This document shows positions 17,409 through 62,908 of a DNA stretch of 64,000 nt, piece by piece. The notes under the pieces are model-generated. The model was not told where the DNA came from. It saw only the letters and a list, made by a program, of their open reading frames with translations, and searched no databases. The DNA comes from Methanococcoides orientis (GTDB lineage: Archaea > Halobacteriota > Methanosarcinia > Methanosarcinales > Methanosarcinaceae): positions 806,001 through 870,000 of the forward strand of contig NZ_CP073710.1 of NCBI RefSeq assembly GCF_021184045.1. The letters run 5' to 3'. Position numbers and translations under genes: made by a program. Every line of letters begins with the position of its first letter. Positions within the stretch are counted from its first letter, which is position 1.

Positions 17409-18134
17409 ATGAAGTGGCAAAAAATTTCAGAGGAAGATGTTGCTGATAAATTATACGATTTTATAAAAGAATACTTTGACGACTTTGGCCATAAAATTGG
17501 AACCAATTGGTGGTTTACACCTTCATGGTCACCCTTTGTAGAAGCTTGTTTTTTGATATGGGGTGAGAAATTAAACTATAAAGTAGGGGCTTCTTATACT
17601 CAGGATAATGTTCCTATATTTTTAAGAGAAATTGGAGTCATTTCAGATATAGATAAATTTCAAAAACCTATTGACAGAGGCTTCGATTTGTCTTGGCATA
17701 CTGAAAATTACGACTTCATATTGGGGCTAGAGCATGAAGAAACAATAAAAGGTAATTTTGGAAACACGGTCGAAAATCACCTCCAGAACATATATGATGA
17801 AATCGAAAAATTACGATCGTATTAGGGAAAATTCAAAATTATCGTCACAAGACCTCGCCTGCGAAAAATCAATGGAATAAAAGATAATTACCCTGATGTA
17901 ATAACGCATTATAGGGATAAATTGTCAGAGAGACTTTTAGAAATCACTCCTCATGATGATGAAAAATGGATAATAATCTTAATTGCTCCTGAGAAAAATT
18001 TAGGAACAAAACAAAGGACTACAAAAATATTGTTTTATTCATATATGTGGGAAACTGATCAACTATCACAAATAACTGAAAAAAGTTTCGAAGTATTCGT
18101 GGATGATGATTTTATGGTAAAAAGAAAAAAATAA
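17409..18134 (+). CDS. Hypothetical protein with one internal in-frame TAG (candidate pyrrolysine or read-through codon)
   Basis: From ATG at 17409 a single frame runs 241 sense/TAG codons to TAA at 18132-18134, broken only by TAG at 17823-17825 after codon 138. The part before is a soluble protein with aromatic clusters (GTNWWFTPSWSPFVEACF). The part after, 102 codons, remains open in AT-rich DNA and has regular beta-type hydrophobic patterning (KWIIILIAPEK, TKILFYSYMWE), so it looks coding rather than accidental. In a pyrrolysine-decoding methanogen the TAG may be translated. Otherwise it truncates the protein to 138 residues and a TTG at 17922 would have to start a 70-residue second product. 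I recognise no family. The neighbour is an HNH nuclease on the other strand. Confidence 0.6.
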
Positions 18135-18192
18135 GGTTGCTATTAGCCAACTTCCAACATACTAAATTTGGATAAAAGATATTTACAATTTA

Positions 18193-19266
18193 TTAATAAT
18201 GACCCAATATTTCTTCCCAAGATACACCTATCAAACATTCCAGGAGATCATCTTTCCTTTTGTCATATAGTACCTTTAAGCTATCTTTTTTTTCATCAAT
18301 TGTCGCATGATGTAATCGCCTATGGCAGTTCGGACAAAGAGACACAATGTTACTCGGCACATCTAAACTCCAATTGAATTCCCCTTGTTTCCCCATAGGG
18401 ATTAAGTGATGAGCTTCTACAAAATTTTCATCCGTTTTGGAGGAAGTAAATGTTTTATGTCCGATATCGATTTCACAAAGGTAGTTCGAATTTTCCAAAC
18501 TCTCTTTCGCAACTTTGGGGTCTCTGGTCCACACTTCCTTTCCATGACTTGTAGTTGATTTCGGCTTTTTTTGTGGCCTTTTTGGAGTACTCGAAGCTTT
18601 TGCATAAATCACTTCACTTTGATATTCTTCATCTTCAATATCGTCGATATCAGTTGTCAATATTCTGTCCGCAAACCTTTCAAAACTCCCAACTCGCCCC
18701 GTTAACTCGCGATAGATGCCGACTAATTTTATGAGATCACTTGTCAATTGCTTGTCATTCGGCAAATCATCTTTTGAATAAAATTTGCCACAAATATGGC
18801 CCAGTTGATATCCTACGGCAAGATTCTTTTTACTTTTTAAATCAATCTTTTCGAGTGGAAAATCCATTGATGATGGATTTAATAGTTTTCTAAATTCATT
18901 TGCAACTGTTACAATGTTTTCCCGCCCTTCTTTGATTCCATATTCCTCTTTGTAATAAGTCCAACCCTGGTTAAGTGATAAATAAAAACCGGACATATCA
19001 GCCCTAAAGAGATATACAATGTAGTAGCCTTCACTTGCACCCGTAGTGATTTTTTTATCAAATATCGCAACCCAAGGAATTTCAGCCCAATTTTTTCTCC
19101 TTCCGGGAGAGCCCTCAATTTTATAGTACGATGTATCAATAAGTGTTGTTTTTTCAATAGATGCTTTTGGAATATGCCTTACATAATGTGCAAAATCACT
19201 GCCAGGAAGTGGTTTCGTTTTTTCAACTAAATAATTATCCATTATTTTTAGAAAAGACTCTTGCAT
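18193..19266 (-). CDS. MrcB_N (DUF3578)-HNH endonuclease, type IV-like restriction protein
   Basis: 357 residues. Residues 1 to about 170 resemble the DUF3578/MrcB N-terminal domain (YYKIEGSPGRRKNWAEIPWVAIFD, then GFYLSLNQGW), which reads modified cytosine in McrBC-like systems. A linker is followed by a C-terminal HNH nuclease: EAHHLIPMG, then NIVSLCPNCHRRLHH, with His-His, Asn and His ligands in order. The fusion suggests modification-dependent DNA cleavage, a defence role. The start at ATG 19266 is preceded by AGGTGA at optimal spacing; a TTG at 19287 lies upstream of that site and is rejected. It sits alone among island genes. Confidence 0.82.
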   Translation of the reverse strand: MQESFLKIMDNYLVEKTKPLPGSDFAHYVRHIPKASIEKTTLIDTSYYKIEGSPGRRKNWAEIPWVAIFDKKITTGASEGYYIVYLFRADMSGFYLSLNQGWTYYKEEYGIKEGRENIVTVANEFRKLLNPSSMDFPLEKIDLKSKKNLAVGYQLGHICGKFYSKDDLPNDKQLTSDLIKLVGIYRELTGRVGSFERFADRILTTDIDDIEDEEYQSEVIYAKASSTPKRPQKKPKSTTSHGKEVWTRDPKVAKESLENSNYLCEIDIGHKTFTSSKTDENFVEAHHLIPMGKQGEFNWSLDVPSNIVSLCPNCHRRLHHATIDEKKDSLKVLYDKRKDDLLECLIGVSWEEILGHY

Positions 19267-19379
19267 AAATTTCACCTGATTGAACAATATGATAAAATAT
19301 ATTAAATAATTATTGATAATTTTAGAACAGTTTTTTACATAAGAATGTTTTGTTTTAACCGTTCATCGTTTCCGAAAAA

Positions 19380-19607
19380 TCACTTGGGAGGGGGAATAAT
19401 CCTCACCTCTTTCTCCGACTTTTCCGGTATATACTTGGAGTCCAAAATCTTCTTCTCCGAGACCACCTTGGAGACCACGTATAGGCCGTCTCTACGCCTC
19501 AAGAGGAAGAACCCACACTCTTCTATCTCCTTAGCTGTTAACCTCCTTATGAGCCTTTTCTGGACCATTTCGGAGGCAGTTCTGTCGTCATATATGATAA
19601 TCTTTTC
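19380..19607 (-). pseudogene. Truncated copy of the 3' end of the winged-helix gene at 22.5 kb
   Basis: About 75 codons matching the C-terminus of the protein encoded at 22543-23622, residue for residue at most positions: IYDDRTASEM, IEECGF, DGLYVVSKVV, EKKILD, and KEVRIIPPPK before TGA. The DNA similarity also runs a few bases past both stops. The match ends abruptly at about 19607, with no start codon or promoter. Together with the full-length gene it brackets the NHL-repeat gene in direct orientation. Confidence 0.75.
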
Positions 19608-19710
19608 ATTTTATTACAAAGGAAAATGCTTCACGGAACGTTAAAGAAAAATACTGAAAACCACCAAAAAAAGAATTGTGGAGAAAATTGTATTCCCCAC
19701 ACTTAAACAA

Positions 19711-23622: not shown

Positions 23623-23675
23623 TTGCTTCACCAATACTTTGAGGTTGTTTGATGCTGATTTTTTGTTGGGAGGAT

Positions 23676-24167: not shown

Positions 24168-25696
24168 TCATTCGTCCATCAGTGCAAGAATCTTGTCAAC
24201 GCCTTTCAGTTGGGATTCAGTCAATGCACCTTTTGGAATATGTAGTATGGATTCAGTAGAATCTTGCTCTGTACGAAGTTTTGACAAAACGCTATCATCA
24301 TCATTGATTAGAAGATAGCTTCGGGCACCTGTTTCTTCGGAAACATACTTTTTGATAGTCTCTGATTCAATTAATGTTTCGATGACTTCTGTAAAATCCT
24401 TACTTTTGATTTCACAGCTCTCAAAAGGTCGGAATGACCACAAGAACCACCCTTGTCTCTTAATTTTTTCAGAACCTTCTCGATTTGATTGAATTTTTCA
24501 TCCTCTTCGAGCCTTTCAATTACGTAAATACAGGAAGGCAAAAAGTAAGTACCAACCAAATTGATTGCGACTTCAATTGATCCTTTTGTTATGGTGTAAG
24601 AAATTGGTTTTTTCCCTATTTCAATGAGCATTGAAATCTTTAGGACATAATCACTTGCCCTTCCCAATGCTGAGTTGTAAATATCGTTCTCAAATTTGTC
24701 GGCTTCCGTTTGCTATTCTCGTATTGTGTCTTGATAAAATATCAGTGCATCATCATCAAATGTCATTGCGGTAGTTTCTAATTTATTGAAGATTTGATAA
24801 ATGGCATTTCCATGCTTAATTACAGCTGCCTGATTGTCAACATCTTCATTACTCTCCATGTCAATATCCACATATGGTTTTTGATAAGTGGGTGCAGCGA
24901 ACAGGGTTCTATAGCCATACCCACATTCAAAATCCATGATATTCATGACATCACAATATCTTCTCGTTGTTGTTGCATAATACGAGTTAATGTAGGGGTC
25001 ATTAACAGTAAATTCGGTCGGACCACCTGTTTTGTTACCAGATAATGTTTTCTTTGTACCCAGCCCATCATAAAATTTACACAATTCGTCAAATATACCC
25101 TCATTGTACTTTTTATGATATTTAGCCATCAAACCAGAGGATTCATCGGAAACTAAATTTTGGTGTGAATTTAGTGCTAATGATTCTATTAGTCCATCAA
25201 CTGACTGTGCATCATCAGTAAGCTTCGTGTCTGTGACTCTTTCGTATATTTCCCTGCATTTCTTGGCAGCTGTACTTTTGCGGCTTGTTGTCGACTTTCC
25301 AAGAATTTGGACAAAAATATTGGCTTTGATTGTCACTTGTTTCGTCTTAAGAATTATTTTGCCATTGTTCCAAGCTGCCAGAAGCCACAATGCACTGCAC
25401 ACATTGTATTCGTAGTAAGCATCTGTCAAGCCCTTTACCCATCTGGTATAGACATTTATGAAATGGTCGGCAGGTAAGATTTTGGAAAGGTCAGGTATGC
25501 GTAGGTCAAGATCCTTCCATTTATTCCGGGACACTCCTTCGTTGCTAAGTATGAGGGTTCCTAACTCTTTAGGGTCAATTAAAATATTGAACATATAATA
25601 GAGGCAGGAGAACAAAAAAGTGGTTTCATCATCTGAAGCCACTTTATTGTAATCTGAATGATTCCTTTCAAGTTCAGACCTATTAAATTTAGTCAT
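24168..25696 (-). pseudogene. P-loop (DUF3987-like) element protein, interrupted by TAG and a frameshift
   Basis: About 505 codons of a replication/helicase-like protein seen in archaeal mobile elements. A Walker-A-like GKSTTSRKST follows the strand NIFVQIL, and later comes RASDYVLKISMLIEIGKKPIS. The ATG at 25696 has GAGGT upstream. The frame meets TAG at 24713-24715, then stays open in the same frame to 24371. Near 24400-24420 a one-base shift moves the sequence to another frame (HSDLLRAVK | SKDFTEVIETLIES) that ends at 24168. The TAG alone could be pyrrolysine, but the frameshift indicates decay unless it is a sequencing error. The family is inferred from overall pattern, not confirmed. It follows an 84-residue protein by 15 bases. 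Confidence 0.65.
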
Positions 25697-25711
25697 AGAA
25701 TAACCTCATGC

Positions 25712-25966
25712 CTAATCCGTACTTTCAAATAAACAAAATTTCAAAATAGACTCGATATCAGTGTCTGGAATGATATCGTCTGTTTCATCTGTGGAATCAT
25801 CAGCGTTCTTGATGGACGATTCCAAAGCTTCGAGCTTCTGATGATCTATAACAAATTGTTCATTCTTTGTTTGTTCAAATGAAGATAAAGTGGTCTGGAT
25901 ACTCGTAGTTATTCGACTTCTACTGTAAAAGCCACGTGTGGCATTCTGTAATTTAAGATATGTCAT
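25712..25966 (-). CDS. Small acidic hypothetical protein, first gene of the element operon
   Basis: 84 residues, ATG preceded by GAGGCT. The C-terminal half is strongly acidic (DDSTDETDDIIPDTDIES). No family is recognised. It is in the same frame as, and 15 bases ahead of, the P-loop protein, so the two are probably co-transcribed; both have similar GAGGYTAT leader sequences. It is the only gene in the window that ends in TAG (25712-25714). A TGA follows two codons later, so read-through would add only two residues. Confidence 0.55.
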   Translation of the reverse strand: MTYLKLQNATRGFYSRSRITTSIQTTLSSFEQTKNEQFVIDHQKLEALESSIKNADDSTDETDDIIPDTDIESILKFCLFESTD

Positions 25967-26034
25967 ATTATAGCCTCATTATTATAAATTTTCAATTAAT
26001 TGTATTTGTTCTAATTTTGCAGTTAGGCGTCTGG

Positions 26035-26498: not shown

Positions 26499-26522
26499 GG
26501 TTTTCTCCTGTTGTACTTTCCT

Positions 26523-47868: not shown

Positions 47869-50856
47869 TCAGTTCCTTCTTCTGATAACAACTGCTGCGA
47901 TCGCGAGCAATGCTGTTGAGAAGAGCATTGTGAATCCAGGAGTTGATTCAGTACTTGCTTCCTCAGACTCAGCTTCAACTTCAGTTGTATCTTCTGCTGC
48001 AACTGATCCATCATTTCCTGCTTCTGAAGCTTCATCCCCAACAATACTGAATACGGAGAATCCAGGTGTCTGAGCAGTGAATTGAAGGAACTCGCCATCA
48101 TCACTGATCTGGATGGTTGGAAGCTCCTGCCACTCCCCATCATGGAACCTCATGAGACGGATTGTGGAGAGATCGATGCTGTTCTCATTGACCCATTCCC
48201 AACTTACCTTGAAGTTGATGATAATGTTATCAGCATTCTCATCTGAGATAGTACCAGCATGTCCAAGAGTTATGCTCATGTGCTCATATGGAATTCCATC
48301 AGGGTGCTCACCAACATCATCAGGAATATCTTTCAGAACCTGAACATTACCAACTACAAGACCCTTGTCCTCTTTAGGCTCAAAGCTTATTCCAAGGACT
48401 GGACCTTCTGAACCACCGAAATCATACTCTGCCTTGTCACCACCAGTTATACGCTGGATAGAAGAACCTGTAGATTCCACATCTTCAGGAGGCTGGCTTG
48501 GACCAACATATGCACGGCTGCCGGAACTGCTCTTCTTCTCAACTGGAGCAGGTGCTGGAGCAGGTGCAAGAGGCAGGAAGTCGAATTCAGTTTCTGAGAC
48601 GTTGTATTGCTTGTCACAGATACCGTCCTCATTGGAGTCTGCTGTATCAACACTAAATCCGGTTCCATTAGGGTGTACCCAGTAGTTTCCACCAAGGGAA
48701 GGTCCGCCAACAATGTTGGTTCCGGCGGTCTTGTTGATGCTCCAGTTGTTTAGAGACTCGGTTTCCTCAATGAACGTTATTTCTGCTTCAAAGACATCAC
48801 GTCCAAAAGTATCGGATATAACGTTAACATTATTGTTGAAATAGTTATTATAGATCAAGTTACTTCTTGAGAATTCAATTAGCAAACCACCCTGCTCACA
48901 ATTACTGATCTTGTTCTCTGAGAAAGTACTATAATCTGTACCCTGTAACGTGAGACCTGTTGAATTAGAATTCATTACAACGTTGGCAGTAACTGTTGCG
49001 TAGTCAGAGGAACCAACAAGTATTCCAGCTTCCATGCATCTAGGTTCAACTGTATTTATCTCTTCAACAGTATTATCTAAAAGAGTGGAGTTGTCAGAGC
49101 CAGACAGTAAGATTCCAATTTGGTTTCCACAATCGATATCTGTGACATTACCATTTTCAATGTCTAGGTACATGATGTCATTTCCAGAGGCAGTTGTGTT
49201 AAAGGAATCTGCTATTCTTATTCCTGTCTGCTTTCCAACAAAGTCCGCATAGACATTAGTGATCAAGTTTTCACTAATCGTATTTCCCTCAGACTGCCAT
49301 ATAAAAATTCCACTCTGTTTATCATTTCCCTCGGGGCTAACAGGGTTAGTGAACTTTATATCATCTACTACATTGTTCATGAAATCAGAGTAGTAAACAT
49401 ATTTAGTCTGTATTCCTGACTGGCGAAGATGTTCACTAGATATTGAAGAGTTATTAATTGACAATGACTTTATTGTGTTGTCCTCAACAGAAACATAATA
49501 ATAATCCATTACATCAATTCCATACTGCTTTGAAATTGATGCATTGTCGACGTAAAGTCCTTCAATTGTGTTGGAATTAATGGAAGATACAACTTCAAGA
49601 TCATCTTCACCAAAATGCACAGAAATGCCCTCTTGCCGATTAGCATCTGATGTATTGGTTATGTAGAAGGAATGAACCTTGTTTTGGGAAATTGTCAGTT
49701 TGTCAGCGTAACTTGTCTTTATACCTGATTGCCTATTAAAATTCATATTGTATGTTCCATTCATTGCATAGAATGAGTTAATATCATTACCAATAATTGT
49801 TATATCAGTTGCATTCCTCACCTTGATACCAGATTCATGCCATAAGTCGTAATTATAATCTCGATCACCAGAAGATAGATAATCCTCCAGCTCAAGTTCA
49901 TCAGCATAGAAATTGCTTATTGTGTTATCAGTTATTGTACAATTTACAATTCCATTATAATCACAACCAGCTTTTATTCCAAACAAACCTCCTACGCTAT
50001 AATTATAGGGGAGTGGAACATTAGCAAGAGAAACGTTATCAATTGTATTGCCGGAAACAATGGAGTCATTTGACATAACTTCAATACCTCTGTCTCCAAT
50101 GCCAGAGATCGTATTATCCGTTATGTAAAGCCCAGTACCGGTTTCATAGTTCCAGAAATAATCATAACTACCGCTGGTACTATTATGTACAATATCTCTA
50201 AACAGGCAGGATTTTATACCCCTGTTGACTTCTGAGATCTCATTGTTTGTAATATAGATGTTCTCACCAGAGGCATATCCAACACCAGCAAAAGCATCTG
50301 ATAGAATGTTATTATCAACAGTAACATCAGAACAATTTAATAACACTACAAGAGAGTAATCAACTCTTGCCCATTCTTCAGCTGTAGCTGTCTCCCAGTC
50401 ATCATAATGGTCTGGCAATCCCTCTGTTGTTACATTAAATACTTCATTGTTCTGGATGCTTACATTATCAACTTCAAAAATAAAGATACCAGAAATTGAA
50501 GTGTTATTTGCATCAACATTGAAACCGTCGATGATAACATCATTTGCTGTCACATTAATAACAGGAAGATCTGATGAATTTGATTTTATCAAAGCACCAT
50601 CTGCATCAGCAAACAATGAAACACTTTTGTTAACTTCGAAGTTTTCATAATTACCATCAAGAACTATAATTGTATCATAATTATCTGCTGCATTTATAGC
50701 AGCCTGTACTGTGGTAAAACCAGTTTCGTTACTAGCATTTACATAATGAGTAGTAGCGCTTGCTGTACCTGCAAAAGCGATCATTGATGTCATCAGAACG
50801 ATGAAGAGCATCAAACCTGCTTTTGTCGTCATTTTATTTTTTTTACATATATTCAT
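47869..50856 (-). CDS. Beta-helix (NosD-like) surface protein with PGF-pre-PGF and PGF-CTERM
   Basis: 995 residues. Signal peptide (KAGLMLFIVLMTSMIAFAGTASA) is followed by FTTVQAAINAADNYDTIIVLDG, the usual entry into a right-handed parallel beta-helix. Many N-x-I-x-x-N repeats continue to about residue 730 (NTISGIGDRGIEVMSNDSIVSGNTI and the like). A PGF-pre-PGF domain follows (GISFEPKEDKGLVVGNVQVL ... FTAQTPGFSVFSIVGDE), then an acidic spacer and the PGF-CTERM anchor (TPGFTMLF ... RRRN) cut by archaeosortase with lipid attachment. A glycosylated cell-surface protein is likely. First of three tandem paralogues; a hairpin terminator separates them. Confidence 0.9.
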   Translation of the reverse strand: MNICKKNKMTTKAGLMLFIVLMTSMIAFAGTASATTHYVNASNETGFTTVQAAINAADNYDTIIVLDGNYENFEVNKSVSLFADADGALIKSNSSDLPVINVTANDVIIDGFNVDANNTSISGIFIFEVDNVSIQNNEVFNVTTEGLPDHYDDWETATAEEWARVDYSLVVLLNCSDVTVDNNILSDAFAGVGYASGENIYITNNEISEVNRGIKSCLFRDIVHNSTSGSYDYFWNYETGTGLYITDNTISGIGDRGIEVMSNDSIVSGNTIDNVSLANVPLPYNYSVGGLFGIKAGCDYNGIVNCTITDNTISNFYADELELEDYLSSGDRDYNYDLWHESGIKVRNATDITIIGNDINSFYAMNGTYNMNFNRQSGIKTSYADKLTISQNKVHSFYITNTSDANRQEGISVHFGEDDLEVVSSINSNTIEGLYVDNASISKQYGIDVMDYYYVSVEDNTIKSLSINNSSISSEHLRQSGIQTKYVYYSDFMNNVVDDIKFTNPVSPEGNDKQSGIFIWQSEGNTISENLITNVYADFVGKQTGIRIADSFNTTASGNDIMYLDIENGNVTDIDCGNQIGILLSGSDNSTLLDNTVEEINTVEPRCMEAGILVGSSDYATVTANVVMNSNSTGLTLQGTDYSTFSENKISNCEQGGLLIEFSRSNLIYNNYFNNNVNVISDTFGRDVFEAEITFIEETESLNNWSINKTAGTNIVGGPSLGGNYWVHPNGTGFSVDTADSNEDGICDKQYNVSETEFDFLPLAPAPAPAPVEKKSSSGSRAYVGPSQPPEDVESTGSSIQRITGGDKAEYDFGGSEGPVLGISFEPKEDKGLVVGNVQVLKDIPDDVGEHPDGIPYEHMSITLGHAGTISDENADNIIINFKVSWEWVNENSIDLSTIRLMRFHDGEWQELPTIQISDDGEFLQFTAQTPGFSVFSIVGDEASEAGNDGSVAAEDTTEVEAESEEASTESTPGFTMLFSTALLAIAAVVIRRRN

Positions 50857-51144
50857 TTGAATACCACCTATTCATACCTATAAAGAAAATTAGTTTCATA
50901 ACGCGAACATAATATAAAAATATATCTATACAGATATAGATATATATTTGTGAACATTAATAAATAATTATAATAAAAGTACAATTTATAAAGATTTTAT
51001 ATACAGGCCACCCTATTAAATAAATTGAATATAACGTAAATTTAAAAGTTAAAGATCAATTATCCTATCGATCAATAGCATAATAATGAACAAATAAACT
51101 AATCGAGAAATTTTCCCCTGATTTAACTTAAAAATAAAAAAGAA
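50857..51144 (-). repeat. Upstream region of PGF-CTERM gene 1, duplicated ahead of gene 2
   Basis: Gene-free. The first ~160 bases upstream of the start are nearly identical to the region upstream of gene 2 (54244-54420), including TTTGAATACCACCTATTCAT right before the ATG and a TATATATTTGTGAACATT box. This indicates duplication of the whole transcription unit and probably shared regulation. Confidence 0.75.
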
Positions 51145-51164
51145 GAGCAGAAAGAATTCTGCCC
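51145..51164 (-). terminator. Terminator of the second PGF-CTERM gene
   Basis: Minus strand GGGCAGAA, short loop, TTCTGCTC, followed by a T-rich tract; same position relative to the stop as in gene 1. Confidence 0.7.
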
Positions 51165-51177
51165 TTTTATTCAGGAA

Positions 51178-54100
51178 TCAGTTCCTTCTTCTGATAACAA
51201 CTGCTGCAATTGCAAGCAGTGTTGTTGAGAAGAGCATTGTGAATCCAGGAATGGATTCAGTACTTGCTTCCTCAGGCTCACCTGCAACTGCATTAGTGCC
51301 ATCTTCTGCTACAACAGCCTTTTCATTTTCTGCTTCGTCCCCGACAATACTGAAGACAGAGAATCCCGGAGTCTGGGCAGCGAAATGAATTACCTCGCCA
51401 TCATCGCTGACCATGGTGGTTGGAAGTTCCTGCCACTCACCGTCATGGAACCTCATGAGACGAATTGTGGAGAGATCGATATTATTCTCATTGATCCATT
51501 CCCTGGTTACCTGGAAATTGATGATGATGTTATCAGCAGTCTCTTCAGAGATCGTACCTTCCGGACCAAGAGTTATGCTCATGATCTGATATTGTTTTCC
51601 TTCCGGAGATCTTCCAACCTCTGCAGGAGCACCGTTCAGAACCTGGACGTTACCGACCACAAGACCCTGGTCTTCCTTGGAATCAAAGCTTATTCCAAGA
51701 ACAGGACCATTACCGAAATCATACTCCATACGTTGACCACCGGTTACACGCAGGATAGAAGAATCTGTGGATTCCACATCTTCAGAAGGCTGACTTGGAC
51801 CAACATATGCACGGGTTCCTGAACTGCTTCTCTTGTCTAAAGCATCAGCAAGAGGCAGGAAGTCGGTGTTGTTCTCATTGATCATATATGCCTTTTCAGC
51901 AATACCATCACTATTTGTATCCTTGTTCTCAATGCTGAATCCTGTTCCATCAGGATGTGCCCAGTAATTTCCGGCAATGTAAGGAGTCCCAATGATGCTG
52001 GTTCCGGAGGTCTTTGGAATGTTCCAGACTGTGTTGACGTTGGTATCATCATCCAGCATTGTGTTGTTTATGTTTCTGAAGTAGTTGTTATATATGGTTG
52101 TGTTCTCTGAATTTGTCAGGTACAGACCATACATGGTACTACCTTTGACTTCATTTCCTTCTATTGTGTTGTCATAATTCACAGAACTCTGAATATCTGT
52201 AGTCTCGAAATCAGTTGTTATTGCGGAAATGTCAATTGAATCAGCTGTAAAGGAGCCAGGTAGGTAGGCACCTATTTCTGAGAAACCTCTATATGGAATA
52301 TCGCTTAGAAGTATACCATAGTCAGTGCCAGAGACAACATTACTGCTCATCTCATTGTTCCAGGAAAATCTCATCTTAAGTCCGATGGATGCACCATCAA
52401 CCCTGTTGTACATTATGGAAGAATTCTCGTTTCCAAATAGTACCACGCCGATACTTTCATCTTCCGGACTCAGGGAGATCACATTGTCGATCACTGTATT
52501 GTTAAAACCAATTGCAATTGCAACACCTGCTCCGGAACTGTTCCATGTTCCGTTATTAATGATATTGTTCTGCACTGTTGTATTGGCCATGAACAATGCC
52601 AACATGCCAGTACGTGTGTTATCAAATGTATTGCCGATGACCTTTCCTTCATAGGGAATGGACGGCAATATAGAGGAACTCTGAACTCCCATTAAATATG
52701 GATCAAATGAAAGTACACCCATGCGGGTCATGTTGAAATCGTTGTCAATGACATCTATTCCTCTGGAGATGGACAGTACTCCGATAGTTACGTTCTCAAC
52801 GGTGTTTCCTTCTATTACAGTTGGAATTGGTTCCATAAATTCGTACATGTCAATGTTTCCAATACCGCCAAATGTGTATTCCCCTGCACCCATGATCGTG
52901 TTGTTTGTAATGGAAGAATTGAGAAGGATCGTAGCAATACCGAAATTATCTCCCATGAATGGAAGTGCTGCGACTTGGGGCCTTGGTCTGTATGTCATGC
53001 TCACAGAATTGTTTTCAATTACAGATTGTTCATGACTGGGGATATCCTCCGGGATGTATCCTTGTATGGAAAAAGAGTCATAACTATAAACTGGTATGCT
53101 GGTTGCAGCAATTCCTCCCCAATAAGGATCGATGACCTGATTATCCATAATGTTTGTAGTATTGACAACTTCGGTAACTATGCCAATGTAGTATGCATCT
53201 TTTACGTAATTATTTGTGATATTCACAAAATCAACGCATTGTGTATAGATACCATATCCTGTAGTGTTAATGGTATTATTGTTGATTTCAGCGATGCCAC
53301 TTTCATCAACATATATCGCAGATTCTGCCATATTTATGATATTATCATTGGCATGCATATCATTGATATTTAAAATATAAATCCCATCAGATGATACATC
53401 TTCAATAAAGTTCAAGTTTACCTGAGTTGCATTTGCATTCCAAATCACAATACCACATCTAGAACTGTTCATAAATGTATTATTGATCAGATTGACACTT
53501 TCTGTTGCATTTATGTAACAGCTATCGTAAATGGAATCATTTACAAAATTGTTTCTGACATCTGCAAGATTACCGTTTTCAACAGTGATACCTTCCTCAT
53601 CAGTGTCTTCGATTTCATTGTTCCAGATATATGTATCATTTACATATAAGGTTTCGATACCGACATCGGCGATGCAAAATATGGTGTTGTTGAGAATATA
53701 GGCAACATCAGTATTTTCAACATCAATACCATCACTATCATTTACATATGAAACAACATTGTCATTTATATAAATATAATCGGTAGCGTTTGCATAAATA
53801 CCATAATAATATGTATCGTTGATTATGTTCTCATTAATATTGATGATTCCACAATTTTCAAAATTGAATCCGGCAAACGAGGTACCATTTCCTTCAATGG
53901 TAAATCCACTGATCGTGAAGTTTACATTATAACCTCTAATTACAGGTGCATCGATATCGTTTGTTATAATTATTGTATCGGAAGGATCTGTGGAACTTGC
54001 TTCCAGTGTCAATGTCTTGGTGATAATGACATTCTCGGAATAGATACCCGGTTCCACAATAATTATGTCTCCCGGATTTGATTCATTTATAGCATCCTGT

Positions 54101-54243
54101 ATCGTTACATAATCAGCTCCTCCACTGGCATTCACAGTGGAAGCGCTGGCTGTACCTGCAAAAGTAACAATTGATACCATCAGAATGATGAATAGCATCA
54201 AGCCTGCTTTTGTAGTCATTTTGTTTTTTTTTAATATATTCAT
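51178..54243 (-). CDS. Beta-helix (NosD-like) surface protein with PGF-CTERM, paralogue 2
   Basis: 1021 residues with the same plan as its neighbours: signal peptide (KAGLMLFIILMVSIVTFAGTASA), YVTIQDAINESNPGDIIIVEPG, about twenty-five beta-helix turns, PGF-pre-PGF domain (GISFDSKEDQGLVVGNVQVL ... FAAQTPGFSVFSIVGDE) and the PGF-CTERM anchor. Its C-terminal 350 residues are much closer to paralogue 3 than to paralogue 1 (for example SENTTIYNNYFRN and NKDTNSDGIAEKAYMINENNTDFLP). It provides the intact comparison for the TAG-interrupted third gene. Surface location is inferred from the sorting signal. Confidence 0.9.
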   Translation of the reverse strand: MNILKKNKMTTKAGLMLFIILMVSIVTFAGTASASTVNASGGADYVTIQDAINESNPGDIIIVEPGIYSENVIITKTLTLEASSTDPSDTIIITNDIDAPVIRGYNVNFTISGFTIEGNGTSFAGFNFENCGIININENIINDTYYYGIYANATDYIYINDNVVSYVNDSDGIDVENTDVAYILNNTIFCIADVGIETLYVNDTYIWNNEIEDTDEEGITVENGNLADVRNNFVNDSIYDSCYINATESVNLINNTFMNSSRCGIVIWNANATQVNLNFIEDVSSDGIYILNINDMHANDNIINMAESAIYVDESGIAEINNNTINTTGYGIYTQCVDFVNITNNYVKDAYYIGIVTEVVNTTNIMDNQVIDPYWGGIAATSIPVYSYDSFSIQGYIPEDIPSHEQSVIENNSVSMTYRPRPQVAALPFMGDNFGIATILLNSSITNNTIMGAGEYTFGGIGNIDMYEFMEPIPTVIEGNTVENVTIGVLSISRGIDVIDNDFNMTRMGVLSFDPYLMGVQSSSILPSIPYEGKVIGNTFDNTRTGMLALFMANTTVQNNIINNGTWNSSGAGVAIAIGFNNTVIDNVISLSPEDESIGVVLFGNENSSIMYNRVDGASIGLKMRFSWNNEMSSNVVSGTDYGILLSDIPYRGFSEIGAYLPGSFTADSIDISAITTDFETTDIQSSVNYDNTIEGNEVKGSTMYGLYLTNSENTTIYNNYFRNINNTMLDDDTNVNTVWNIPKTSGTSIIGTPYIAGNYWAHPDGTGFSIENKDTNSDGIAEKAYMINENNTDFLPLADALDKRSSSGTRAYVGPSQPSEDVESTDSSILRVTGGQRMEYDFGNGPVLGISFDSKEDQGLVVGNVQVLNGAPAEVGRSPEGKQYQIMSITLGPEGTISEETADNIIINFQVTREWINENNIDLSTIRLMRFHDGEWQELPTTMVSDDGEVIHFAAQTPGFSVFSIVGDEAENEKAVVAEDGTNAVAGEPEEASTESIPGFTMLFSTTLLAIAAVVIRRRN

Positions 54244-54536
54244 TTGAATACCACCTATTCATACCTATAAAGAAAATTAGTTTCATAACACAAGCATAAT
54301 ATAAAAATATATGTATATAGATGTGAATATATATTTGTGAACATTAATAAATAATTAAAATAAAAGTAAAATTTATAAAGAATTTGTACCCATGTCGAAC
54401 TATTAAATAAATAAATAAATAAATAAATTATGGTGTGAATTTAAAAGTTAAAGATCAATTATCCCACTGATCAATAGCACAACAATGAACAAATAGAGAA
54501 ATTGTCCCCTGATTTAACTTAAAAATAAAAAGAGAA
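54244..54536 (-). repeat. Upstream region of PGF-CTERM gene 2, duplicate of 50857-51144
   Basis: Gene-free. Shares the start-proximal ~160 bases with the gene 1 upstream region at high identity, then diverges through an (AAAT)n run near 54403-54430. Contains the presumed promoter. Confidence 0.75.
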
Positions 54537-54556
54537 GGACAGAAAGATTCCTGCCC
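54537..54556 (-). terminator. Terminator of the third PGF-CTERM gene
   Basis: Minus strand GGGCAG, loop of eight, CTGTCC with one G-U pair, then a pyrimidine-rich tract. Weaker than the other two but at the same place. Confidence 0.55.
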
Positions 54557-54569
54557 TTTTGTTCAGAAA

Positions 54570-57500
54570 TCAGTTCCTTCTTCTAACAACAATCGCTGCA
54601 ATTACAAGCAGTGTTGTTGAAAGGAACATTGTGAATCCCGGAGTTGATTCAGTACTTGCTTCCTCAGGCTCGCCTGAGATCACAGTATCTTCTTCTGCTG
54701 AAACAGTCCCTTCATTTCCGGCTTCATCCCCGACAATACTGAAGACAGAGAATCCCGGAATCTGGGCAGCGAAATGAATTATCTCGCCATCATCGCTGAT
54801 CATGGTGGTTGGAAGTTCCTGCCACTCACCATCATGGAACCTCATGAGACGAATTGTGGAGAGATCGATATTGTTCTCATTGATCCATTCCCTGGTTACC
54901 TGGAAGTTGATGATGATATTTTCAGCAGTCTCTTCAGAGATCGTACCTTCAGGACCAAGAGTTATGCTCATGATCTGATATTGTTTTCCTTCCGGAGACC
55001 TTCCAACCTCTGCAGGAGCACCGTTCAAGACCTGGACGTTACCGACCACAAGACCCTGGTCTTCCTTGGAATCAAAGCTTATTCCAAGAACAGGTCCCTG
55101 TGAATTGCTGAAATCATATTCCATACGCGCTCCACCGGTTACACGCAGGACAGAAGAATCTGTGGATTCCACATCTTCAGGAGGGTGGCTTTGACCAACA
55201 TAAGCACGGGTGCCATAACTTCTTCTCTTCTCGACAAAAGCAGCTGCAAGAGGTAGGTAATCGGTGTTGTTCTCATTGATCACATATTTCTTTTCTGAGA
55301 TACCGTCACCCGTTGTATCCTTGTTCTCAATGCTGAATCCTGTACCGTCAGGATGTACCCAGTAGTTTCCTGCAATGTAAGGACTGTCAATGATGCTGGT
55401 TCCAGATGTTTTGGCAATATTCCAAACAGTATTATTGTTGGAAGCATCATCCAACATTGTGTTGTTGAAGTTCTTGAAGTAGTTGTTATATATGGTTGTG
55501 TTCTCTGAATTTGTCAGGTACAGACCATACATGGTGCTGTCTTTTATTATGTTTCCTTTGACGGCATTGTTGTAATTCACAGGTTCAGAATCAGGTAAAC
55601 TTCCTGTAATCTCAAATTCCGTAGACATAATGGAAGTGTCAAATGAATCGATAGCAATTCTAGGATGATAGCTGCTTGTTTCAACAAAACTCATGAATGG
55701 AACATTGTTAAGAAGCCTTCCTTTTTCGGTGCTATCGACAGCAAAGCTGCCTATATCATCACTCAGAACATATTTACTTATATTGAGGCCAACAGATGCA
55801 CCCTCAACATAATTGTCCATGATCGTAGAGTTCTCAAAGCTTAACAACTCTATACCGACACTGTCTCCTTCAGGGCTAAGGGATATTGTATTGTCCTGGA
55901 TTGTATTGTTTATTCCATAGTAAATAGTAAATCCTGCTCCTGATTCTGTCCTTGTTCCATTATGGATGCTATTGTCCCGGATAGTTGTGTTTATCAGAAA
56001 GTCAGAATATATCCCGGTGTATGTATTATCAAAGGTATTGTTCCTAATTGTAGTATTTATTAGATACTCAGAAGCTATTCCGAGGTCAGTGTTATCAAAG
56101 GTGTTATCAGCGATCTGTTCATCATAATTTTCATTCGCATTCAGACTAATAAGCGTCATATTGACTTTATTGCCAATAATATCCGTACTGGAGGAGATAG
56201 TCTATATTCCAACAAAAACATCATCTACAGTATTTCCTTCGATGTTCGTGTTCATCGTTGATTCTTTGGTATTGAGACTGGCAATGCCTGCAAAAATATG
56301 ATTAATACCTGCACCATTAATCACATTATCTTCAACAGATGTATTTATGTTCAATGCCGCAATACCGAATGGAGGGTATTCTAATACTGCTGTTGGTGTT
56401 GGGAGAGGTACATATTCCATAGTTATGGAATTATGCTCAATAACTGATGGTTCATATTTTTGAGTGGAATCCAGCTCTAAAGCAGTTGTCTCTATTTCCA
56501 GAGCAGTTGATTCCAATTCCATGTCAATAAAATCATCATCTAGCTCTGTTGACTCCAAACCCATGACAGCCATTTGTACACCAAAGACATCATTCACTGC
56601 TCCATTGGTAGCTACGATACCAGCTCCATAATAATCATTGATTTGGGTGCCAATTATGTTGTCAATTATGTATGTTGTATTAACATATTCAACAACTATA
56701 CTCTCGTAAGTATCGTCAATTAAATTGTTTGTAATATTTACAAAATCAACGTCATCTGTATAGATTCCAGATTTAGCGTCTAGAAATATGTTATTATCAA
56801 TTTCTAGCAAATAACCATCATCAAAATCGATTATTTCGTAAGATCCATTGATTGAATTATGATTAATGTAAGTTTCATTGATGTCATCGAGTTCTATTCC
56901 CGCATCTGATGTATTTGTGACTGAGTTGTACTTTATATTTGTAATATTAGAATAGCGCACATCAATACCATCAGCTCCACTTATGTTTGTAATGTTGTTG
57001 TTGATCACATTAACGAATTCGACATAGTATATATAACATCCATCACTAACAAGATCAGCAATTTCATTATCCCTTATATCTGCAAGGTTTCCATATCTAA
57101 CATCGATAGCATCATCTCTAATTTCAGAAATGTCATTATTTAGGACGTATGTATCATTTACATAATATGTATCGATAGCATCATCTTCAATATTCAGGAA
57201 AGTGTTGTTGAGGATATACAAGAGATCTGAATGCTTGGCATCGATACCATCAGACTCATACCACGAATCGTTCAGGTTTGTAAAATAATTATCTGCTATG
57301 TGGATTGTGTTGGTATCATTTACATACACTCCATTTTCAGTGGTATCATTAATTGTGTTCTCACTAATCGTGATGACACCACAGTTTTCAAAACGAATAC
57401 CATTTTCTGAAGTTCCGTTTCCTTCAACAGTAAATCCACTAATAGTGATGTTTATTTTAATATCTTCAGAAGATCCATTTATCACAGGGAAATAACTATC

Positions 57501-57791
57501 ATTTGTTATAATAACGGTCTCAGACGGGTCTGTGGAATTTGCTATTAAGCTCAATGTCTTGTTGATAAAGACATTTTCAGAATATATTCCTGGTTCCACA
57601 ATGATCTCATCGCCGGAACTTGATGCATTTACAGCTTCCTGTATCGTTTCAAAGTCAGCTCCGCCACTCGCATCTACATAATGAGTAATAGCACTGGCTG
57701 TACCTGCAAAAGCAACGATTGATGCCATTAGAATGATGCAAATCATCAACCCTGCCTTTGTAGGCGCTTTATTTTTTATATATACATTCAT
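54570..57791 (-). CDS. Beta-helix PGF-CTERM surface protein, paralogue 3, with an internal in-frame TAG
   Basis: One frame of 1073 codons from ATG 57791 to TGA at 54570, interrupted only by TAG at 56202-56204 (codon 530). Before it: signal peptide, FETIQEAVNASSSGDEIIVEPG and beta-helix repeats. After it: more repeats, PGF-pre-PGF domain and PGF-CTERM. Length and order match the 1021-residue neighbour. At the TAG the neighbour reads GVLSISRGIDVIDNDFN and this gene reads GI-TAG-TISSSTDIIGNKVN, so the TAG stands where the paralogue has Leu. If TAG is decoded as pyrrolysine the protein is complete and anchored. If not, the product is secreted without an anchor, and an ATG at 56159 could only make an unexported C-terminal half. 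Confidence 0.75.
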
Positions 57792-58097: not shown

Positions 58098-59015
58098 ATG
58101 GGAGTTACAAGATCCATCAAAAAGATAATGAAGAGCATGCCGACCATTGAAGGAGCAGGAGTTCACCTGAAAAGAGCCTTCGGATTCAATCATGTACCAC
58201 AACTGGATCCTTTTCTGCTGCTTGATGATTTCCATTCGAATGATCCGAAAGAATATATCATGGGTTTTCCATGGCACCCCCACAGAGGAATTGAAACTAT
58301 AACCTATATGTTGTCCGGAGAAGTTGAACACGGAGACAGCATGGGGAACAAGGGTCTCATTGAGTCAGGTGACGTGCAGTGGATGACCGCCGGAAGCGGG
58401 ATCATTCACCAGGAAATGCCAAAGGGTCAGGAAGGAACAACTCTCTGGGGGTTCCAGCTTTGGGCTAATCTGCCGGCATCTCACAAAATGATGGAACCAC
58501 GATATCAGGAAGTTAAGAGCGAGCAGATACCGGAGGTGGCAACGGATAATGGTATCTGGATAAAGATCATTTGCGGTGAAGTTAATGGTACAAAAGGTCC
58601 TGTACAGGACATTGTAACAGACCCGGAATACCTGGATATTACAATTCCTCCTGAAACATCATTTTCACATCCAACAAAACCCGGATATACTGTCTTTGCC
58701 TATGTTCTCGAAGGTGAAGGCTCTTTTGGAAAAGATCAGGAACCATATTCCTTCGAAGTGGAGGGGGCAAAATATTTTGATCTCAATGAACCATCAACGA
58801 TCGGTCCTGAGAATCTGGTTATGTTCGATGATGGTGATGAGATAGTAGCAACGGCGGGAAATAAAGGGTTAAGATTCCTGCTTATTTCGGGTAAGCCCAT
58901 CAATGAGCCGGTTGCCTGGTATGGTCCGATCGTGATGAACACACAGGAAGAATTGAAGGTGGCTTTTGAGGAATATAGGAATGGGACTTTTATTAAGTCG
59001 GGAAATTCAGATTGA
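58098..59015 (+). CDS. Pirin-family cupin protein
   Basis: 305 residues, bicupin. The N-terminal cupin holds the metal-binding signature: FPWHPHRGIETITYML (two His) and GSGIIHQEMP (His and Glu). The conserved LDPFLLLDDF lies upstream, and a second cupin with SFEVEGAKYFDL comes later. Pirins bind Fe and act as quercetinase-like oxygenases or as redox-sensing regulators; which applies in an anaerobe is unclear. ATG 58098. Monocistronic. Confidence 0.92.
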   Translation: MGVTRSIKKIMKSMPTIEGAGVHLKRAFGFNHVPQLDPFLLLDDFHSNDPKEYIMGFPWHPHRGIETITYMLSGEVEHGDSMGNKGLIESGDVQWMTAGSGIIHQEMPKGQEGTTLWGFQLWANLPASHKMMEPRYQEVKSEQIPEVATDNGIWIKIICGEVNGTKGPVQDIVTDPEYLDITIPPETSFSHPTKPGYTVFAYVLEGEGSFGKDQEPYSFEVEGAKYFDLNEPSTIGPENLVMFDDGDEIVATAGNKGLRFLLISGKPINEPVAWYGPIVMNTQEELKVAFEEYRNGTFIKSGNSD

Positions 59016-59118
59016 CCCACTCTTTTTTGTTTTCAGAGAATGATTACATTTATATACTGAAAGTATGTTTTACGAACCCTGATAACTTTAATAGGAGATC
59101 TCTAAAAGGATCGAAATA

Positions 59119-59312
59119 ATGGAATTCGAGAAATATATCATAGATCATTCCTGAATGATCTAAAAACAGGTTTTATTCTAGCAATTGTAGCACTTCCAAT
59201 TGCCTTTGCAATAACTTCTGGCCCGGAACCGATGATAGTTCTTTGTGATGCTATCATTAGAGGCCTGCTTGTTTTTTCCTTTGATAATTCACAGCATTCC
59301 CTATTCAGATAA
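59119..59312 (+). pseudogene. Remnant of a SulP-family anion transporter (N-terminal fragment)
   Basis: A frame ending at TAA 59310-59312 encodes NDLKTGFILAIVALPIAFAITSG and AIIRGLLVFSF, matching the first two helices of SulP transporters of the DLKAG-x-VAIVALPLAIAFAI type. The ATG at 59119 (MEFEKYIIDHS) is in another frame and stops after 11 codons. The rest of the gene is absent. It lies 130 bases upstream of an intact SulP gene of a different subtype, so it is a relic of a second transporter. Confidence 0.65.
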
Positions 59313-59441
59313 GTAGTCACCAGATTCCTCGATCTGGAATTACATTATCATTAAGTTCCAAAATTTATTTTGGTAACTTTTCAGTTTCAACCGTTGGCAT
59401 AACTTACGGGTGCATAGCAATCTTTAAAATTTGGTATAAAT

Positions 59442-60980
59442 ATGGCATTTATAGAACAACTAAAGAACGATCAATTGAATTTCAAAAATGAGGTATTATC
59501 CGGGATGACAGTTTCACTGGCACTTGTGCCTGAAGCTGTAGCCTTTTCAATAATAGCAAATGTAAGTCCATTGGTTGGACTTTATTCTGCATTCATCATT
59601 GGATTGATAACCGCAATTATCGGTGGCAGACCGGGAATGATATCAGGTGCTACGGGTGCAATAGCAGTTGTAGTTGTGGCTCTGGTGATCAGGCACGGAG
59701 TCGAGTATCTTTTCGCTGCTGTAATTCTGATGGGTATTATTCAAATGACCATTGGCTTTTTTAAGCTGGGTAAATTTATTCGGCTTGTACCACATGCAGT
59801 AATGTTCGGCTTTGTAAATGGGCTGGCAATCGTGATCTTCATGGCCCAGCTTTCCCAGTTCAAATTTACTGATATTAACGGGATCGAACATTGGCTGGGA
59901 GGACAGACACTTCTGGTCATGTTAGGTTTAGTAGGATTGACCATGGGTATTATCTATATAATGCCAAAATTAACAAAAGCAGTTCCTGCTTCACTAACTG
60001 CGATCATAGTTGTTTCAGCCATTGTCATCTATTTCCAGGTCCAGACAAGAACAGTTGGAGATATTGCATCAATTGCAGGCGGCTTTCCTGAATTCCACAT
60101 ACCACAGGTACCACTAAATCTGGAAACACTGAAAATTGTTTTCCCGTATTCAATCGTCATGGCATTGGTTGGATTGATCGAAAGTCTGTTGACGCTCACA
60201 GTGATCGATGAAATGACAGAAACAAGAAGCAGGGCTAATAAAGAAAGTGTTGCACAGGGTATTGCCAACTTTGTTTGCGGACTCTTTGGAGGTATGGGCG
60301 GCTGTGCCATGATAGGCCAGAGTCTCATCAACATAAACTCAGGTGCCAGAAACAGAACCTCAGGTATCGTTGCAGCTGTGGGCCTATTACTTATTGTGTT
60401 AGTAGGTGCTCCTCTTATCGAAAAGATACCAATGGCAGCATTGGTTGGTGTGATGTTCGTGGTTGCCATCGGAACATTCGAATGGGCATCATTAAAAATA
60501 TTCAGAAAAGTGCCCATTACGGACGTACTTGTTATGGTGGTCGTAGCAGGCATAACAGTCATTTACCACAACCTTGCAGTAGCTGTAATCGCAGGTGTCG
60601 TTATTTCTGCACTGGCTTTTGCATGGGAAAATGCAAAACTTGTCCGTGCAAGGGAAATAATTGATGATAACGGGATCAAGCACTACGAATTTTTTGGTCC
60701 GTTGTTCTTTGGTTCAGTTACTGAATTCCAAAACAAATTTGATGTGTTAAATGACCCTGACGAGATAATAATCGATCTCAAAGAATCAAGAGTTGCTGAT
60801 CATTCTGCCATCGAAGCATTGAATAAGATAACTGAACGCTATGCAAAGGTTGGTAAAAAGGTCCATCTTCGACACTTAAGCGAAGATTGTCTGGTACTGC
60901 TGGACAATGCATCTGCCATAATTGATGTCAATCACTGGGAAGATCCGCATTACAAAGTACCCTCTGATATACTGGGATAA
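59442..60980 (+). CDS. SulP (SLC26)-family anion transporter with STAS domain
   Basis: 512 residues. Ten to twelve membrane helices with the family signatures SGMTVSLALVPEAVAFSIIA, SPLVGLYSAFIIGLITAIIGGRPGMISG and a central ESLLTLTVIDEMTETRS. Cytoplasmic C-terminal STAS domain from about residue 400 (FFGPLFFGSVTEF, ... IIIDLKESRVADHSAIEAL). Likely substrates are sulfate, bicarbonate or another anion. ATG 59442 lies directly behind a TATAAAT box, suggesting a leaderless or very short leader. A strong terminator follows 26 bases after the stop. Confidence 0.92.
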   Translation: MAFIEQLKNDQLNFKNEVLSGMTVSLALVPEAVAFSIIANVSPLVGLYSAFIIGLITAIIGGRPGMISGATGAIAVVVVALVIRHGVEYLFAAVILMGIIQMTIGFFKLGKFIRLVPHAVMFGFVNGLAIVIFMAQLSQFKFTDINGIEHWLGGQTLLVMLGLVGLTMGIIYIMPKLTKAVPASLTAIIVVSAIVIYFQVQTRTVGDIASIAGGFPEFHIPQVPLNLETLKIVFPYSIVMALVGLIESLLTLTVIDEMTETRSRANKESVAQGIANFVCGLFGGMGGCAMIGQSLININSGARNRTSGIVAAVGLLLIVLVGAPLIEKIPMAALVGVMFVVAIGTFEWASLKIFRKVPITDVLVMVVVAGITVIYHNLAVAVIAGVVISALAFAWENAKLVRAREIIDDNGIKHYEFFGPLFFGSVTEFQNKFDVLNDPDEIIIDLKESRVADHSAIEALNKITERYAKVGKKVHLRHLSEDCLVLLDNASAIIDVNHWEDPHYKVPSDILG

Positions 60981-61005
60981 GAAAAATCCAACATCATTTC
61001 GAAAT

Positions 61006-61029
61006 ATGAATTCCAATTCTGGAATTCAT
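61006..61029 (+). terminator. Intrinsic-type terminator after the SulP gene
   Basis: ATGAATTCCA, loop ATTC, TGGAATTCAT: a perfect 10-base stem, followed within five bases by nine T. The clearest terminator in the window. Confidence 0.85.
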
Positions 61030-61131
61030 TGCTCTTTTTTTTTAAGTTAGCAATTTGCTTTATCTCCAAATCAATTCAATTCTTTATCATGGAAGATGAA
61101 AAGCAGAAGATATTCCTTGAATTCAAGTATA

Positions 61132-61201
61132 TCTTATCATCTTATGTAACGCTTCTTGTTGCCAGAATTGACTAAAAGAAGCGCTATGACGTATCATAAG
61201 A
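61132..61201. other. Two-part inverted repeat of unknown role
   Basis: Outer arms TCTTAT (61132-61137) and ATAAGA (61196-61201), symmetrical 12-base internal loops, inner arms CGCTTCTT (61150-61157) and AAGAAGCG (61176-61183) and an 18-base terminal loop. It lies in the 340-base gap between SulP and the DMT permease. It could be a small structured RNA, a decayed mobile-element end, or chance. Confidence 0.35.
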
Positions 61202-61324
61202 ACAAAGCCGTATAGGTGGGGAAAACAAAGAAGGAGGGATCTGAAATTCCCTAAAAATATAGAAAAATAAGAGGCATAAACCCAAATAGCTTCACCATAA
61301 TAGTTATTTCAGGAGAATAGAAAA

Positions 61325-62173
61325 ATGATACCTGCTGAATTCCTTGTGGTTTTCTTTGGACTTATGGCAGCCATATCCTGGGGTGCCGGAGATTTCAGCG
61401 GCGGATTCGCATCCAAACGTGCGAATGTCTATAGTGTAGTCCTGATAACTCAGGCAGTCGGAGTATTCCTTCTTGCAGCTTCAGCTCATCTGATGGCAGA
61501 AGAAATGCCACCTCTTGGCGGTATGATATGGGGAGCTGTTGCCGGAGTTTTCATCAGTATCGGGCTTCTGGCACTTTACCGTGGTCTCTCACAGGGACGG
61601 ATGGGATTTGTTGCACCAATTTCCGCAGTTGTAGCTGCTACCGTACCAGCCATCTATGGTACATTCTATGAAGGATTGCCTGCTGTTCATCAAATGGTCG
61701 GGTTTGCTTTTGCACTTGTAGCAGTCTGGCTCATTGCCGGCGGAGGAGATGAGAGTAGCAAGATCGAACGCACAGATCTTATACTGCCATTGATCGCCGG
61801 AACAGGATTCGGACTATTCTTCATATCAATTGACAAAGTTAGTGATACGGCTGTACTCTGGCCCCTTACCGCTGCAAGGATAGCAGCCGTGATAACATTG
61901 ATCGTATTTATCGCTTTGAGCAAACAGGTCTACTTACCACCAAAAAATGTCCTTCCGATAATTATCATTGCAGGAGTTTTTGATACAGGAGGAAACACCT
62001 TTTTTGCACTGGCTTCCCAGGCAGGTAGGCTCGATATAGCATCCATTATATCTTCACTTTACCCTGCAGGAACAGTCTTGCTTGCATGGCTGATACTCAA
62101 GGAAAAACTATCCCTAAAGCAATGGATTGGTGTAGCTGCTGCACTTATTGCTATTGTGTTCATCTCGGCTTGA
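61325..62173 (+). CDS. EamA/DMT-family transporter
   Basis: 282 residues with ten hydrophobic helices in two EamA repeats. The first repeat opens with LMAAISWGAGDFSGGFAS and closes with FALVAVWLIAGG; the second ends with SLYPAGTVLLAWLILKEKLSLKQWIGVAAALIAI, the typical EamA end. It is a drug/metabolite exporter or importer of unknown substrate. ATG 61325 has AGGAG upstream at good spacing. A decayed copy of its 5' end lies 165 bases downstream. Confidence 0.9.
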   Translation: MIPAEFLVVFFGLMAAISWGAGDFSGGFASKRANVYSVVLITQAVGVFLLAASAHLMAEEMPPLGGMIWGAVAGVFISIGLLALYRGLSQGRMGFVAPISAVVAATVPAIYGTFYEGLPAVHQMVGFAFALVAVWLIAGGGDESSKIERTDLILPLIAGTGFGLFFISIDKVSDTAVLWPLTAARIAAVITLIVFIALSKQVYLPPKNVLPIIIIAGVFDTGGNTFFALASQAGRLDIASIISSLYPAGTVLLAWLILKEKLSLKQWIGVAAALIAIVFISA

Positions 62174-62337
62174 GTTTAGATAAAATTTTATGAGATTTTG
62201 GCTCTGTAAAAATCATCTACTCGAAATTCGTGACCATATAGGAATTAAATAATTTCTTTTTTAAAAATATATCATACAGAAAGCGGAAAGTATAAATCCA
62301 AATTACTTCAATAATATATTTATTCTAAGAGAATAAA

Positions 62338-62456
62338 TGTATAGCACCTGCTGAATTTCGGATGGTTTTGTTTGGACTTATGGTCGCTATATCATGAGGT
62401 GACAGAGATTTCAGCGGTGAATTAAGTTATCAACGCACATATCTCCTTATGAAGTA
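62338..62456 (+). pseudogene. Decayed copy of the 5' end of the DMT permease gene
   Basis: About 40 codons similar to the start of the intact gene (APAEFRMVLFGLMVAIS-stop-GDRDFSGEL against IPAEFLVVFFGLMAAISWGAGDFSGGF). The Trp codon TGG has become TGA, the start region is out of frame, and the match ends in a stop near 62456. A duplication remnant with no coding capacity. Confidence 0.75.
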
Positions 62457-62542
62457 AAGAGCTTCAATAGGAGAAAGTGTAAATTATATATTCAAAAATT
62501 GAAAGAAAATGAGGGGATGAAATAAAACTAAAAAACATCTTT

Positions 62543-62908
62543 TTGTTGTTTCTTGTATTGAATTCTATGTTTATTTTAGGATATACTTTAGGGATAAATA
62601 ATATAGAAGTGTCATTTGAAAATAGCACAAAACTGTCTTTTGGAAATAAAAATAATATATCTGATAATTTCCAAGTCGAAAATGATTATGTATTTAAAAT
62701 TGGTGAAAATGTAAGTACATCGAAATAGTTTAATACAGCCAGTCGTAGCTTTTCAGGAACAGTTGTGGATATTAATTATTATGAAACTGGAAATATTTTA
62801 ACAATTTATAATTCTTCAACTGATGAGACTAAAATGCTAAATGAAGAGTGGATTGCAGAATTTGGACAAAGAAAATTCGACTTGATAAATGATGGAAACA
62901 ATTACTGA
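62543..62908 (+). CDS. Small exported hypothetical protein with an internal in-frame TAG
   Basis: A hydrophobic leader (LLFLVLNSMFILGYTLGI) precedes a short beta-rich domain. The frame is interrupted by TAG at 62726-62728 and then stays open for 59 more codons (SFSGTVVDINYYETGNILTIYN ...) to TGA at 62906-62908. The part after the TAG keeps beta-strand patterning, so it looks coding. No family is recognised. The start is unclear: the frame is open from 62513 behind GAGGGG, but only TTG codons (62540, 62543) are standard starts. An ATG at 62517 would fit only if one A were missing from the following A-run. It is either a TAG-decoded protein or a young pseudogene. Confidence 0.45.

Follow-up and report, generated by a model that had tools for sequence, protein, structure and literature searches.

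We hypothesize that TAG in the genome of Methanococcoides orientis is very probably read as pyrrolysine, the 22nd amino acid, and that four genes which appear to be interrupted by a TAG are therefore probably whole. These genes lie in the 64,000-nucleotide stretch of DNA analysed here (herein referred to as the window; NCBI RefSeq assembly GCF_021184045.1, contig NZ_CP073710.1, positions 806,001 to 870,000), for which a first-pass annotation had proposed pyrrolysine decoding, an interpretation that is supported by the pyl operon, the rarity of TAG as a terminator and purifying selection past TAG. All four genes that it had listed as carrying an internal TAG in an open frame do so, and each frame continues to the next TAA or TGA over the length given below; none of the four extensions has accumulated TAA or TGA codons.

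17409..18134, + strand: gene 1, a 241-aa read-through frame with no family assigned and TAG as codon 139
17823..17825, + strand: in-frame TAG of gene 1, then 102 open codons; the aligned residue is Pro in the relative G005 and falls in a Lys region in G034
24371..25696, - strand: gene 2, a DUF3987/primase-like (PF13148, PHROG DNA primase) 441-aa read-through frame with TAG as codon 328
24713..24715, - strand: in-frame TAG of gene 2, then 113 open codons; TGG (Trp) in both orthologues
54570..57791, - strand: gene A, a 1073-aa secreted beta-helix (NosD-type) protein with TAG as codon 530
56202..56204, - strand: in-frame TAG of gene A, then 543 open codons; CTG (Leu) in paralogue B
62522..62908, + strand: gene 4, a short exported protein with a 128-codon read-through frame
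62726..62728, + strand: in-frame TAG of gene 4, then 59 open codons; also TAG in G006, TAT (Tyr) in G005

The genome that contains the window (2.49 Mb, a single contig) holds a complete pylTSBCD set outside the window. pylS is a full-length ORF of 413 aa that exceeds the curated cut-off of TIGR02367 (419 bits); the gene for tRNA-Pyl (pylT, anticodon CTA, that is CUA) lies directly upstream of it, and pylB, pylC and pylD, each above the cut-off of its equivalog (TIGR03910, TIGR03909 and TIGR03911, respectively), lie downstream. The mtmB family is represented by four genes, two with one in-frame TAG each and two further homologues without. Among 60 relatives, pylS is found above cut-off in 34, and the ten other Methanococcoides are all among these.

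Genes in this genome hardly ever terminate in TAG. In a 464-kb sample of the 2.49-Mb genome, made up of the window and 20 stretches of 20 kb at even spacing, ORFs of at least 120 aa end in TGA 172 times, in TAA 164 times and in TAG only eight times (21, 18 and 3, respectively, in the window), and more than 40 open codons follow the stop in all eight TAG-ended ORFs versus 58 of the 335 that end in TAA or TGA (p=1.3e-6). One of the eight (L049) looks antisense and is not coding by the coding model. This fourth-order model, trained on long ORFs, called 398 genes in the same 464 kb, with 195 ending in TGA, 193 in TAA and 10 in TAG; at least 20 coding-like codons continue in the same frame past seven of the ten TAG ends, as against 26 of 388 TAA or TGA ends (p~1.4e-6). 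The remaining three TAG ends are that at 25712 (one codon, then a conserved TGA), that of pylB and that of a 58-aa call, the latter two being possible true TAG stops.

The same pattern recurs in the near relative G006, where coding extensions follow nine of ten TAG ends versus 27 of 348 TAA or TGA ends (p=3.6e-9), and in G005 (four of 12 TAG ends, p=0.02). In G013, a family member that has pylS, 12% of gene ends are TAG and the excess of extensions (4/40 versus 14/289) is not significant; the avoidance of TAG and its use as sense are thus a lineage trait rather than an artefact of the method. A stop count verified by homology was discarded, as near-identical genomes match in wrong frames too, seemingly also in an rRNA region. 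The four genes had been described as a possible local cluster, a view that these counts do not bear out: TAG-ended long ORFs make up 3 of 42 in the window and 5 of 302 elsewhere (p=0.06), and TAG decoding is a genome-wide (genus-wide) property.

The genome also contains TAG inside other genes, in two of the sampled ones within a conserved domain. In a secreted subtilase TAG is codon 565, inside the Peptidase_S8 match (250-578); in a sensor kinase it is codon 788, inside the HATPase_c match (762-871); and a QueG/reductive-dehalogenase-like protein has it as codon 68. A CcmF-like protein has TAG as codon 178 in seven of the ten matched Methanococcoides (M. orientis, G003-G007 and G010), the position being His (CAT) in the other three, and the aligned sequences from other genera have Ser or Thr there. 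Purifying selection acts past this TAG: over the following 150 codons, dN/dS between M. orientis and G006, G004 and G010 is 0.13, 0.12 and 0.07, respectively, and about 0.06 (0.059) against G005, where dS is saturated, with all pairs far from neutral (p down to 2e-19). As TAG is present in both members of each pair, these comparisons are the cleanest sequence-only evidence for sense TAG in the genus.

The same sites bear on whether UAG is instead ambiguous, mostly terminating, with partial or growth-dependent read-through, so that each protein would exist in a short and a long version. aRF1 is present and full-length with its NIKS and YxCxxxF motifs intact, such that UAG should still be recognised; a reporter UAG in M. 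acetivorans still mostly terminates, with 20-30% read-through (PMC2933860); and the TAG end of pylB is kept across the genus. Against these points stand the near-complete loss of TAG as a gene end, the persistence of the CcmF-like TAG in seven species and the positions of TAG within the catalytic domains of the subtilase and the kinase (HATPase_c), where truncation would kill the enzymes, and we regard an ambiguous UAG of this kind as conceivable but rather doubtful. The machinery, the rarity of TAG as a stop, the coding extensions, the in-domain TAGs and the constraint on the CcmF-like gene together argue that TAG is a working sense codon here.

Within the window, gene A provides the strongest of the four cases. 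Two paralogues without TAG lie in tandem downstream of it, B being the nearest:

51178..54243, - strand: paralogue B of gene A, 1021 aa
47869..50856, - strand: paralogue C of gene A, 995 aa

Past the TAG of gene A come a PGF-pre-PGF domain (residues 870-1021) and, at the C terminus, a hydrophobic tail that contains PGF, and no further disabling changes were found in the gene. On the gene A branch, polarised by the G004 homologue, 60 nonsynonymous and 50 synonymous changes past the TAG depart from neutrality (p=4e-8), a constraint that resembles that of the intact paralogue, and some of the counted changes may be older than the TAG. The predicted structure (pLDDT 52 overall) places the TAG in a strand of local pLDDT ~74, which is supportive only. 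Both halves of the frame are 529 aa in the mechanical ORF list and could on that ground be taken for adjacent surface-protein genes parted by a TAG stop; such a reading is extremely improbable: gene A aligns through this region with B and C, each of which is one continuous gene, and the second half of its frame lacks a start resembling a signal peptide but does contain the PGF-pre-PGF domain and the tail. Gene A is hence very likely translated through its TAG into a full-length protein.

Gene 4 shares its TAG with a G006 copy that is 94% identical, and the 59 codons past it differ between the two by three nonsynonymous and six synonymous changes (p=0.003), again indicating purifying selection. 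The start codon is ATA in the window where both G006 and G005 have ATG, such that initiation of the window copy is doubtful; the TAG itself is probably sense. For gene 1, alignments to two homologues span the TAG site, namely one in G005 (44% identical, split by a transposase gene) and an intact 250-aa ORF in G034 (29%). Its 102-codon extension has a coding score of 32.7, and no further disabling changes were found in the gene. Searches for gene 1 among defence systems, phage and PDB entries returned nothing convincing, and its predicted structure (pLDDT 53) was unusable for a fold search. The open frame and the distant homologues make it likely that gene 1 is translated through its TAG.

Gene 2 is the least settled of the four, and two further features belong with it:

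24170..24411, - strand: last 79 codons of gene 2, shifted out of frame in the window by a 1-bp deletion at ~24411
25706..25966, - strand: 84-aa ORF upstream of gene 2, with the end GAT TAG GCA TGA

The gene is open at the TAG site in its orthologues from G006 (88% identical) and G001 (M. alaskense; 82%). Changes on the window branch past the TAG number six nonsynonymous to seven synonymous (p=0.01), some of which may likewise predate the TAG. The frameshift that the first-pass annotation had noticed is real, one A being absent at ~24411 relative to the G006 orthologue, and reflects decay that is very recent or else an error in the sequence; in the relative's frame the last 79 codons are stop-free and mildly constrained (dN/dS 0.35, p=0.046). 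Gene 2 may thus be decaying, and, although its TAG is probably sense, we see only about an even chance that the gene, frameshifted near its end, is translated through it into a full-length protein. The TAG at 25712-25714 in the upstream ORF had been interpreted as a stop with a backup TGA two codons on. The TGA (25706-25708) is indeed there and is conserved, and the TAG is CAG (Gln) in G006 (GGT CAG TCA TGA); it fits a penultimate sense codon better than a stop with a backup.

The evidence from these genes also has to be weighed against nonsense decay, by which some or all of the four would be pseudogenes, TAG a mutational stop and the downstream part a relic. Several features are what decay might leave behind: a single G-to-A change converts TGG to TAG in gene 2, which carries the 1-bp deletion as well; gene 4 has the ATA start; and genes 1 and 2 are patchy in distribution, the G005 homologue of gene 1 being the one split by a transposase gene. 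Decay is nevertheless unlikely, as the extensions are without any TAA or TGA, only TAG is over-represented genome-wide ahead of coding extensions, the gene 4 TAG is common to two species with purifying selection past it, and the 543 codons past the gene A TAG, those of the PGF-pre-PGF domain among them, remain constrained. Indeed, the relaxed constraint that decay predicts past the stop is seen in none of genes A, 4 and 2 at the p values given above. We therefore favor, with considerable confidence, a reading in which UAG is routinely decoded as pyrrolysine and the four genes would each yield a full-length protein with one pyrrolysine.

We infer the following route for this decoding. PylB, PylC and PylD would synthesise pyrrolysine, with which PylS would charge the amber tRNA pylT, and the charged tRNA would outcompete aRF1 at UAG, with no special signal 3' of the codon required. 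A change in the aRF1 motifs as the cause of TAG reassignment was considered and rejected, and as these motifs are unchanged, competition between tRNA-Pyl and aRF1 is the most likely mode of decoding. Directly past the UAG of the four sites, no stable, PYLIS-like RNA stem-loop was detected (z = -0.51, -1.75, -0.17 and +0.41), which agrees with the published view that decoding can do without a PYLIS element (PMC2933860). The efficiency of insertion may be incomplete, given that the M. acetivorans reporter UAG mostly terminates (PMC2933860). Codons for Trp, Tyr, Leu, Gln and other residues would drift near-neutrally to TAG in ordinary genes, and the resulting TAG codons would persist: with so few genes ending in TAG, read-through does little harm. 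Since the aligned residues vary among relatives (Leu, Trp, Tyr, Pro/Lys), the four TAG sites are presumably drifted sense positions rather than functional pyrrolysine sites.

The conserved TAG end of pylB invites a more speculative proposal. At the pylB-pylC junction (TAG G ATG), plentiful charged tRNA-Pyl could allow ribosomes to pass the pylB TAG and to cross the pylC start in another frame, which would lower pylC translation and so provide feedback on pyrrolysine synthesis; UAG would in this view have become a true sense codon in Methanococcoides, and the pylB end, the one conserved UAG that still closes a gene, would act as a switch. We put this forward as a long shot.

Gene finders that take TAG as a stop will split or discard such genes, among them those of the surface protein, the protease, the sensor kinases and the CcmF-like protein, and annotation of the genus is hence liable to error at TAG sites. 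Whether pyrrolysine outside the methyltransferases is ever useful or only tolerated can be asked at two concrete places, the conserved TAG of the CcmF-like gene and the end of pylB.

The closest known system is the pyrrolysine decoding of Methanosarcinaceae (pylTSBCD; MtmB, MtbB, MttB), with which M. orientis shares the cassette, the codon, the organism family and mtmB genes with in-frame TAG; in contrast, none of the four genes described here encodes a methylamine methyltransferase, and conservation of their TAG positions does not extend across the family. Kivenson et al. (in Science, 2025) reportedly describe an archaeal "Pyl code" in which all TAG is pyrrolysine. The sampled statistics here fit such a genome-wide sense TAG in archaea, whereas the pylB TAG is a possible exception to it. 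As pyrrolysine decoding, low use of TAG as a stop and drifted TAG codons have already been published for Methanosarcinaceae (PMC2933860, PMC3941956, PMC3639795), the four genes are new members of a known decoding system. Near-neutral drift to pyrrolysine has been proposed for Thg1 of M. acetivorans (PMC2933860) and for other candidates (PMC3639795), which likewise have TAG in one lineage of an ordinary gene and other residues in relatives; unlike those cases, the genes here belong to other protein families, and TAG is so depleted as a stop that nearly all clear sampled cases are sense.

Coordinates of three of the loci described below:

Window 47869-57791, minus strand: three tandem paralogous secreted beta-helix/PGF-pre-PGF proteins, including A (54570-57791, with an in-frame TAG) and B (51178-54243)
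G000:C1:1353795-1354778 (L205): CcmF-like gene (cytochrome c haem lyase type); copies compared in L204-L213
L064:4128 (genome position 2364128): terminal TAG of pylB; relatives in L164-L177 and L181-L183

Between A and B, dS is 0.20 over the last 210 codons and exceeds 1 over the first 740, and this far greater likeness of the C-terminal parts suggests, from sequence comparison, that they underwent recent gene conversion. In G005, the 17409 gene has a homologue that is interrupted by a transposase-like gene (L039:492-1433).

Across L204-L213, codon 178 of the CcmF-like gene is TAG in seven Methanococcoides species and His in three others; among the non-methyltransferase TAGs seen in the analysis, it was the most highly conserved. 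The close relative G006 carries a sensor kinase (L184:13548-14588) with two in-frame TAGs within a single frame (codons 163 and 347 of 650) and a UvrD-like helicase (L184:2163) in which TAG, at codon 306, is followed by 712 more codons. One aRF1 (release factor) gene was seen in Methanococcoides genomes, whereas G020 has two full-length copies (L129 and G020:C1:3286598-3287815).

The pylC ATG directly follows the terminal TAG of pylB, separated by one G (TAG G ATG). All 11 Methanococcoides and most other family members examined share this arrangement, which may possibly provide feedback on pyrrolysine synthesis; in the two genomes of the G013 genus, pylB terminates instead with TGA. The TAG end of pylB has already been noted for M. 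mazei, M. acetivorans and M. burtonii (PMC2933860).
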